Of a stretch of 64,000 bases of DNA, positions 52,736 through 54,503 are shown one piece after another. The position numbers and the translations under genes were made by a program. The notes below the pieces were generated by a model, which saw only the letters and a program-made list of their open reading frames with translations, ran no database searches and was not told the origin of the DNA. Source of the DNA: Marinobacter lipolyticus (lineage in GTDB: Bacteria > Pseudomonadota > Gammaproteobacteria > Pseudomonadales > Oleiphilaceae); the NCBI RefSeq assembly GCF_018424605.1, contig NZ_QTKT01000006.1, positions 124,001-188,000 of the forward strand. The letters are read 5' to 3'. Within the stretch, counting starts at the first letter, position 1. The number at the start of each line of letters is the position of its first letter.

Positions 52736-52768
52736 GGCCCCCGGGACTCTGATTTCGGTGGTTGTGGA

Positions 52769-52873
52769 CGGGCGGGGCGGCCTGTCCAAAAACCGCTCCT
52801 TCGGCACATCCTTGTGGCGCTTCTGCTCCGCCATCCATGGCTGCGCAAATTTTTGGACAGGCCGCCCCGCCCG
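52769..52873. repeat. Hairpin-rich repeat element A (24-bp perfect inverted-repeat ends)
   Basis: The ends 52769-52792 and 52850-52873 are perfect 24-base inverted repeats, built from a GC-rich block, CCTGTCC and AAAAA. The 57-base inside, read on the minus strand, holds smaller stems: GCCAT-GG-ATGGC, GGCG...CGCC and CACA...TGTG. It lies between ybiT and the DUF1415 gene. Element B at 53511-53675 shares its core pattern. It is too long for an ordinary terminator. Confidence 0.75.
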
Positions 52874-52920
52874 CCCACTCACGCCTCTCAGTGGGCCTCA
52901 AACTTAAAAGAGATTACGGC

Positions 52921-53490
52921 ATGGATGAAATCGAGATTATAAGCGCGACTCGTAAGTGGGTCGAAGACGTGGTTGTCGGCTATAACCTGTGTCCATTCGC
53001 CAAACGGGAACTGGTCCGTAACCGGGTTCGGTTTGTGGTATCGGAGGCAGTGACGGAAGATGAGTTACTGCAGGCGCTGCATGCCGAGCTCCAACGGCTG
53101 GACGACGAACCCGAGATCGAAACCACGCTGTTGATCCATCCGGGTGTTTTACAGAACTTTGGACTCTACAATGAGTTTCTGGATGCGGCAGACGGTTTGC
53201 TCGCGTATCTGGATATGGAGGGTGTCTATCAGATAGCCAGCTTCCACCCGGACTATCAGTTTGCCGAGACGGAACCGGGCGCTGCGGAAAACTACACCAA
53301 CCGCTCGCCGTTCCCGATGCTTCATCTGTTAAGAGAAGCCAGCCTGGAGGCAGCGATTGACAGCTATCCGGACGTAAACGAGATCCCCCAACGAAATATC
53401 GAGCTGATGGAAAAGCTGGGCGCAGAGAAAGTGCGTAACACGCTCGCAGCATGTTTCGTTCACAATGTCCCGGAGCGGACAGGGGAGTAG
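52921..53490 (+). CDS. DUF1415 family protein
   Basis: A 189-residue cytoplasmic protein. The start MDEIEIISATRKWVEDVVVGYNLCPFAKRE shows the DUF1415 signature N-LCPFA around residues 21-27, with a conserved Cys. IETTLLIHP and YQIASFHPDYQFAET (about 99-113) and NRSPFPMLHLLREAS (about 120-135) complete the pattern. Function is unknown. The ATG at 52921 is the family start; the longer frame runs back through repeat element A. It lies between elements A and B, both of which are non-coding. Confidence 0.85.
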   Translation: MDEIEIISATRKWVEDVVVGYNLCPFAKRELVRNRVRFVVSEAVTEDELLQALHAELQRLDDEPEIETTLLIHPGVLQNFGLYNEFLDAADGLLAYLDMEGVYQIASFHPDYQFAETEPGAAENYTNRSPFPMLHLLREASLEAAIDSYPDVNEIPQRNIELMEKLGAEKVRNTLAACFVHNVPERTGE

Positions 53491-53510
53491 ACCAAAGAGC
53501 CGGTGGGTAG

Positions 53511-53675
53511 GGCCGTCCAAAACTGTGCGGAGCCATGGGTGAAGAGCGGAAAGCTCTTCACGGGCAGGCCATGGACGGCCTGCCCAGGACCCTCAGTGCG
53601 ACGCAGGAGCAATAAGCACTGAGGGGCGGAGCCCAAGCGCCCCATGGATGGGCTTGAGCGTGTTTTGAACGTGCC
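53511..53675. repeat. Hairpin-rich repeat element B (tandem stem-loops)
   Basis: Imperfect ends GGCCGTCCAAAA (53511) and TTTTGAACGTGCC (ending 53675) enclose consecutive perfect stems: 53539-53547/53553-53561, 53562-53570/53577-53585, 53591-53599/53616-53624 and 53623-53628/53638-53643. Its first and last parts match element A's core (GTCCAAAA, AGCCATGG, GGCGGAGC..AAGCGCC). The middle stems are extra. It sits between the DUF1415 gene and the spermidine-synthase-like gene. Confidence 0.75.
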
Positions 53676-53771
53676 ATCCCAACCGTGACTGCACTGAGTA
53701 TCAGGCTGGGGACGGCAAACTCTATAAAAGAAATGTTCCCGCAAACTGGACCAAACCACGGAGCCTAGTTC

Positions 53772-54503
53772 ATGGGCCTGCTTTTCGAACAAATAGACAG
53801 CCAACCCTCGGTTATCGGTGAGATCACCCTGCGCCGGCGTCGTATTCCGGCCATCGGTGACCGGGATATCTTTGAGGTGAAACTGGGCGAGGAATTCCTC
53901 ATGTCCAGCATGTTTGTGGACGCCGAGGTAGCCCTGTCCGATATCGGCCTGGGTGAAACCGAAGGCGACAACCTCCGCGTGGTGGTGGGTGGTCTCGGGC
54001 TGGGCTACACCGCCGTAGCGGCGCTCAAGCATGAGCGGGTGGCCGAGCTGCTGGTGGTTGAATACCTGGAACCGGTCATCGGCTGGCACCAGCGGGAACT
54101 GGTGCCTCTGGGGAAGGATCTGAACGCCGACCCGCGGAACCGTTACGTTCATGGCAGCTTCTTCGACCTTGCGATTGCCGACCTCAATGATGGTGGTTTT
54201 GACTCCCAGGACCCCGGCAAACCCTTCGATGCCATTCTCCTTGATATCGACCACTCGCCGCGGGCACTGCTGCACGACTCCAGCGCCAGTTTCTACACCG
54301 CCAACAATCTGCGCCTGATGGCCCGGCAGCTCGCCCCCCGCGGCGTATTTGCCATGTGGTCAAATGAGGGGGAGGATGAGGAGTTCATGGCGGTGCTGCG
54401 CCAGGTGTTCACCGATGTGGCCTGCCATGTCGTATCCTTCTTCAATCCGTTTCAGAACAGGGAATCGTTCAACACCGTGTACGTGGCCCGCAAGCCGGGC
54501 TGA
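53772..54503 (+). CDS. Spermidine synthase-like methyltransferase-fold protein
   Basis: A 243-residue protein with a Rossmann-type SAM-binding fold. VVVGGLGLGYTAVAAL (about 69-84) is the glycine-rich motif and VVEYLEPVIGWHQ (about 95-107) holds the acidic residue after strand 2. FDAILLDIDHSPRALL (about 150-165) replaces the polyamine-synthase D-x-x-D catalytic pattern, and the conserved Tyr/Gln of SpeE are not evident, so polyamine synthesis is doubtful. It may be a methyltransferase or an orphan. The ATG follows GAGCC weakly. The sirtuin gene starts 14 bases after its stop. Confidence 0.78.
   Translation: MGLLFEQIDSQPSVIGEITLRRRRIPAIGDRDIFEVKLGEEFLMSSMFVDAEVALSDIGLGETEGDNLRVVVGGLGLGYTAVAALKHERVAELLVVEYLEPVIGWHQRELVPLGKDLNADPRNRYVHGSFFDLAIADLNDGGFDSQDPGKPFDAILLDIDHSPRALLHDSSASFYTANNLRLMARQLAPRGVFAMWSNEGEDEEFMAVLRQVFTDVACHVVSFFNPFQNRESFNTVYVARKPG

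Follow-up and report, generated by a model that had tools for sequence, protein, structure and literature searches.

Control by CsrA is commonly portrayed as resting on a small number of sponge RNAs. Repeats of the ERIC, Correia and REPIN types are palindromes of about 110 bp scattered between genes, and some of them carry insertions at fixed places. In the RNA family TwoAYGGAY (Rfam RF01731, clan CL00106), an outer stem encloses two hairpin loops of the A-Y-G-G-A-Y type. The table entry in PMC2864571 (2010) gives this family as probably RNA and probably not cis-regulatory, with occurrences in the human gut, gamma-Proteobacteria and Clostridiales; Rfam, unlike that table, types it as cis-regulatory. 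A 2014 motif study (PMC4333381) predicts CsrA binding for the family, and describes a badly conserved external stem and a tandem-GA-like element within one of the stems. For CsrA sites, PMC7652899 gives RUACARGGAUGU as the SELEX consensus, loops of six bases with AC/GU closure, and a spacing between sites that is optimal above 18 nt.

The window analysed, a stretch of 64,000 nucleotides of Marinobacter lipolyticus DNA, contains two elements, A and B, that flank a DUF1415 gene (52921-53490, + strand; PF07209, E 4.6e-70). Element A (52765-52877, - strand) is a plain element of the TwoAYGGAY type, as determined from its pairing table and from a match (52763-52879, - strand, 111.9 bits) to a model of 50 sibling copies that include A. 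Its outer helix of 28 bp, formed on the sense strand by a 5′ arm at 52850-52877 and a 3′ arm at 52765-52792, encloses a core of 57 nt. The perfect 24-base inverted-repeat ends reported in the initial annotation (52769-52792 and 52850-52873) are present, and the repeat reaches 29 nt at 97%. Within the core, hairpin H1, GCC-AUGGAU-GGC (52830-52841, - strand), presents the first CsrA-like loop and is evident from the sequence, the inverted repeat and the alignment; hairpin H2, CAC-AAGGAU-GUG (52805-52816, - strand), presents the second, and is evident from the sequence and from covariation of the H2 helix across the family. These correspond to the two loops of TwoAYGGAY, except that the second base of AAGGAU is not Y. 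Further points of likeness to the family as PMC4333381 describes it are a tandem-GA-like element within one of the stems and an outer stem that is poorly conserved.

Element B (53502-53680, + strand, outer ends approximate) is a long form, with a degenerate outer helix around the core and a three-hairpin module, M1, in the loop of H1. It was assigned on the basis of query parts 1-47 and 131-186, which match sibling copies in its own genome, and of its position, which is orthologous in relatives. The H1 loop (53535-53624, + strand) measures 90 nt, compared with 6 in plain copies, M1 being a net addition of 84 nt. The M1 hairpins occupy 53539-53561, 53562-53585 and 53590-53625 on the + strand, the last stem reaching one base beyond the H1 loop, and H2, CCC-AUGGAU-GGG (53641-53652, + strand), was identified from the sequence and a partial model match (53614-53665). 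Because of the insert, B matched the 50-copy model in its second half alone (23.5 bits). The imperfect ends, the core strings common with A and the four stem-loops previously noticed in B are all present in the sequence. The opposite orientation of the two elements was also borne out, A (- strand) aligning with B (+ strand) over 43 nt at 77% and 29 nt at 83%; both are directed away from the DUF1415 gene. None of 200 shuffled sequences folded equally well in either case (z = -10.0 for A and -6.2 for B), which indicates that the folds are not due to chance. An ABC-type ATPase gene (PF00005, two stretches) lies upstream of A. The gene downstream of B (window 53772-54503, + strand) is without a Pfam match at E 0.001.

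With the Rfam model RF01731, A scored 33.1 bits against a cut-off of 43, B was not among the Rfam matches, and the best copy in the host genome, that which carries the window, reached 42.7 bits, short of the cut-off. Matches at E 0.001 were obtained in 24 of 38 genomes, host included (22 of the 25 in the genus); the cut-off was passed in seven of the 38, five of them of the genus, and none of 14 control genomes matched. When long-form loci were compared with Rfam at E 0.5 or better, the sole match was the A copy beside B. Relative to TwoAYGGAY as described, the badly conserved external stem takes the form of a helix of fixed length (28 bp) in the Marinobacter copies, and these add tens of copies per genome, inserted modules (M1 and a second type, M2) and divergent pairs. 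The family is real, modular and under constraint on one strand, and is a much expanded form of an RNA family already known but of unproven function; that family thereby gains a marine host in which it is abundant and tractable. The scale, the strand test, the modules and the pairing rule are new, as far as limited searches show; no description of TwoAYGGAY in Marinobacter was found in a limited search of the open-access literature, which is weak evidence of novelty.

Searches of the host genome returned 31 matches with B and 45 with A; in these totals certain copies appear as two separate matches, and one hit is to the opposite strand of A itself. Loci fetched around these matches yielded 54 copies by the core pattern, of which four, B among them, were dropped before alignment. 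The model from the other 50 gave 91 rows in the host genome, comprising 77 copies that scored at least 50.5 bits, the reverse strands of 12 of them, and two long forms, B at 31.6 bits and C22:273216 at 31.2 bits. Adding a long form found by pattern only (C22:139322), the host genome contains at least 80 copies, and the initial annotation's proviso that the family idea would fail if there were two copies only does not apply. The tests below used the 50 aligned copies or 75 of the 77 model hits, the other two being without 200-nt flanks.

At E 1e-10, copies were found in 40 of 58 genomes; this census and that of the host used a model with H1 one column off, and scored the best 150 or 64 candidates per genome. 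A search of Marinobacter genomes with the core had been proposed, and all 37 genus genomes examined had copies: 24 had 55 to at least 64, four had 28-46 and nine had 2-11, two of these nine being less than 85% complete. Copy number in the genus is two-peaked, with the low group (2-11) made up of G004, G011, G012, G016, G020, G038, G039, G042 and G046. In other families of the order, three of 21 genomes carried 20-30 copies each; loci viewed in two of the three had the same anatomy and diverged letters. A scan with the exact core pattern found at least 119 stretches, and all 119 of the matches listed were from Marinobacter. A 64-nt core query had no match at E 1e-5 in plasmid and phage records, and there was none at E 1e-5 in E. 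coli records.

From the outside in, the 50 aligned copies consist of a 28-bp helix and a core of 51-58 nt holding H1 (GCC-ANGGAY-GGC) and H2 (a variable 3-bp stem with an ANGGAY-type loop). The sequence of the outer helix is copy-specific, the arms being on average 44% identical between copies at helix positions 6-28. Pairing was found in 97.8% of its cells, and 27 of the 28 pairs change on both sides. Pairing drops beyond position 28, with Watson-Crick pairs present in 41 of 50 copies at position 28, 22 at position 29 and 14 at position 30. The covariation score for the whole structure was 0.806, compared with 0.177 for shuffled alignments (0/500) and at most 0.160 for slid ones. Covariation is strong and the boundaries are common to copies, the opposite of the outcome that the initial annotation had named as fatal to a family. 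At H2, pairs exchange while GGA is kept. H1 is without variation in the alignment because the copies were picked by a pattern that fixes it. In eight of the 75 copies, which only the model detected, H1 has a different stem, with four sets of innermost pairs among them; the four innermost pairs are Watson-Crick in all eight, around A-N-G-G-A, and the loops read AGGGAU, AUGGAU, AAGGAC or AGGGAA.

Helix defects were then compared by type. Positions 1-26 of the 50 copies contained 35 G.U, no A.C and 20 other defects in 1300 cells, while positions 29-30, just outside the helix, contained 12 G.U and 12 A.C in 100. The 75 flanked host copies, in the cruder register of the model, gave 66 G.U and 11 A.C in 1950. 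For 196 distinct elements of relatives, the G.U and A.C counts were 122 and 11 at positions 1-26 (of 5096), an intermediate 25 and 16 at positions 27-28, and 61 and 61 at positions 29-30 (of 392). These were drawn from 178 loci, including 80 of the 119 exact-core-pattern stretches, and an element qualified if it had the H1 pattern and 18 Watson-Crick pairs among 26 in the helix; orthologues are included, so the 196 are not independent. The large excess of G.U over A.C inside the helix, and their equality outside it, indicate that one strand is under constraint, with RNA as the simplest reading. Helices that are nearly perfect yet differ in sequence might also be expected of DNA palindromes that are kept perfect by template-switch correction and have no RNA role. 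Such a process is strand-symmetric and, as with any acting on double-stranded DNA, would give equal G.U and A.C, so that the inequality observed inside the helix (35:0, 122:11) leaves this explanation strongly disfavoured and scarcely credible. A single-stranded DNA hairpin could also yield the asymmetry. In two complete genomes, element orientation showed no bias with respect to the replication strand (28:25 and 44:53, with the strand judged from sampled GC skew and the orientation of 53 of 80 and 97 of 118 matches used), and a hairpin of lagging-strand single-stranded DNA is therefore not favoured. In any repeat family, the strand of helix defects offers a simple means of separating one-strand (RNA-level) constraint from double-strand DNA constraint.

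The 75 copies were located in 42 tandem, 22 convergent and 11 divergent gene gaps, compared with 33, 14 and 14 among the window's 61 gaps; gene calls were from a codon-usage script with rough starts. In tandem gaps, 20 copies were sense and 22 antisense to the genes, which argues against a fixed cis-regulatory role, and the host copies have no fixed orientation to genes. In 57 of the 75 copies, no more than 60 nt separate the element's 3′ end from a neighbouring gene; for the 5′ end this holds in 31. This proximity, together with a helix of fixed length and free sequence, would suit 3′-end elements, whose 28-bp helix would serve the ends of neighbouring transcripts as a stem for stabilisation or for processing by RNase III. 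The even split of sense and antisense, the C- and A-rich trailer with no U-tract, and the conserved loops, which a processing stem leaves unaccounted for, make that role improbable. In the flanks of the 75 host copies, the 3′ arm is followed directly by a weak common trailer, CnnCCCCAAAG, and the 5′ arm is preceded by letters resembling AAAGTCnGGG; CCCAAG was found within 40 nt of 12 copies and TGCACC within 40 nt of 10.

Where two elements lie close together, they are almost always divergent (32 of 33 pairs). The host has 13 of 14, the remaining one being tandem, G095 has 13 of 13 and G131 has 6 of 6; a pair present in several species enters these counts repeatedly. The host's A and B are a further divergent pair, and the G095 set includes that genome's own A/B pair. 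The rule could possibly be explained by an upstream region in common, or by the elements having once formed a compound mobile unit. Neither a conserved pair spacer nor an outer palindrome was found when looked for, and spacers differ in sequence from pair to pair. The spacers of L037 (C42:45376-45580) and L043 (C46:73269-73359) contain a different palindromic repeat, GTCGGATTA or its complement.

The host genome yielded a single M1 long form, B. M1 was matched in 62 of 120 genus genomes, one to at least seven times each with up to seven candidates scored per genome, and sat at the same site in the 32 copies viewed, whose outer helices are mostly unrelated. The stems covary in 31 distinct M1 sequences, where the predicted pairs comprised 987 Watson-Crick, 23 G.U, 3 A.C and 10 other cells. 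GGA was present in the second and third loops of all 31 and in the linker of 30 (the exception being L072). The first hairpin has mostly GAAA-like loops without GGA, and the notion that every M1 loop contains GGA was dropped, as this hairpin does so in only two of 31 (B and L111). The possibility that the M1 insert is a small gene was likewise rejected: in relatives the length of the 100-nt stretch varies between 98, 99 and 100 nt, which breaks the frame. M2 was seen in the H2 loop of ten sequences, two from the host genome, and inspection of these modules by eye showed no further A-N-G-G-A-Y loop. The modular, structured-RNA family first proposed from A and B thus stands, with a conserved core, compensated stems and stem modules inserted at two fixed places.

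Single sites differ between species in the presence and form of the element. Among 28 relatives' loci at the B site, 17 had the plain form, four a long form (L072 and L073 with M1, L071 and L097 with M2) and seven no element; at the A site, 27 of 29 had the element, L085 a shortened remnant and L072 nothing. The outer-helix sequence of L072 is common to the plain L077 and L085, so that M1 was gained or lost within an existing element. Comparison of L096 with L097 looks like element loss, with the outer part of the 3′ arm remaining. At site s163563 (host C42:163563; L151-L179), the element is on the + strand in some species and the - strand in others, consistent with either inversion in place or separate arrivals.

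Presence and absence of this kind raise the question of mobility, as had been suggested for A and B. The family could be a mobile repeat, MITE- or REPIN-like, in which the folded strand is needed for the element's own spread and the likeness to CsrA sites is incidental or serves the element. It would account for a copy number that runs from 2 to at least 64 within the genus and for the patchiness beyond it, where 3 of the order's 21 genomes have copies; modules that keep to fixed places across copies that are mostly unrelated, together with the nearly constant divergent pairing, would likewise be expected of it. In size, dispersal and fixed-place insertions the elements resemble ERIC, Correia and REPIN repeats. 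They differ from these in having arms without conserved sequence (some 44% alike between copies) and a constraint on one strand. No target-site duplication was apparent in the 75 copies, flank matches being 4.29 within copies and 4.27 across copies. The absence of plasmid or phage matches to the core query at E 1e-5 and of replication-strand bias also speaks against a mobile repeat, as does the conserved GGA, which it leaves unaccounted for. The mobility first suggested therefore finds partial support, in a copy number and presence that differ between species, and we regard a mobile repeat of this kind as unlikely, though the most serious competitor to a CsrA-binding role.

CsrA binding is predicted from the sequences, and is the best-supported role of the elements. 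Two A-N-G-G-A-Y motifs occur in 72 of the 75 copies, with 20-22 nt from GGA to GGA; the other three lack two motifs. ACANGGAYGU is found in 61 of 75 cores, RUACANGGAYGU in 19 and the exact consensus RUACARGGAUGU in three. The gap, the six-base loops and ACANGGAYGU fit the site features given in PMC7652899. In 40 copies, the predicted unpaired probability of GGA was 0.89 in H1 and 0.69 in H2, compared with 0.46 for core triplets. We consider it probable, with some reserve, that A and B are candidate CsrA-binding RNA elements of the TwoAYGGAY type that have proliferated throughout the genome. The sense strand (- for A, + for B) would be transcribed, and the RNA would form the 28-bp helix and present the conserved core, where the two short hairpins are so spaced that one CsrA dimer could clamp both. 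Many intergenic copies together would act as decoys or anchors for a single CsrA, damping or buffering its regulation, and, as most copies display two CsrA-like loops, the genome may carry a built-in decoy set. Against this reading, the even split of sense and antisense elements in tandem gaps means that readthrough from host genes would not account for every copy. With its further GGA sites in M1, B would resemble a small sponge of the CsrB/RsmZ type.

The CsrB/CsrC and RsmX/Y/Z/W sponges likewise have several GGA hairpin loops; plain copies differ in providing two sites each at many loci, and no GacA box was found, by one pattern, in 75 upstream regions. A promoter score for the same set, which is without B's upstream region, was 5.45 compared with 5.46 for shuffled sequence. 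The RsmZ and CsrB models (RF00166, RF00018) had no matches in the host genome, and the second M1 hairpin of B weakly resembles the RsmW hairpin (18.4 bits, E 1.8, cut-off 52). More tentatively, and with less than even confidence, we suggest that in Marinobacter genomes the dispersed RNA elements, some 80 or more and for the most part with two spaced CsrA-docking loops, form an array that buffers the single CsrA throughout the genome; that the elements spread, diverge by compensation, swap modules and settle as divergent pairs; and that the family is selected at least partly as protein-binding RNA and not as DNA. Tens of two-site elements per genome would alter the arithmetic of CsrA titration, and would provide a natural system for asking whether repeats scattered through a genome can be kept there as decoys for a protein.

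Predicted folds count in part against CsrA binding. Of 72 copies (L102 and L104 left out), 26 formed both hairpins in the minimum-energy fold, 30 formed a single one and 16 formed neither, and for element A another core fold was preferred. The median cost of forcing both H1 and H2 was 1.9 kcal/mol. For B the region 53502-53670 was folded, and its most accessible loop, 53571-53576, had an unpaired probability of only 0.32. Further points on this side are B's degenerate outer helix, the first M1 hairpins that for the most part lack GGA, M2 modules in which no additional A-N-G-G-A-Y loop was seen, and upstream regions of 75 copies that gave neither a promoter score above that of shuffled sequence nor, by one pattern, a GacA box. 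The nine genus genomes with 2-11 copies, eight of which have a csrA match, also count against CsrA binding. The host genome has one csrA match, and matches were found in 57 of the 58 genomes searched, the exception being 62% complete. G134, from another family of the order, had 30 model hits and nine CsrA family matches. A 6S RNA gene (L022:359-538, + strand; RF00013, 95 bits) lies about 1 kb from the element at C41:53340.
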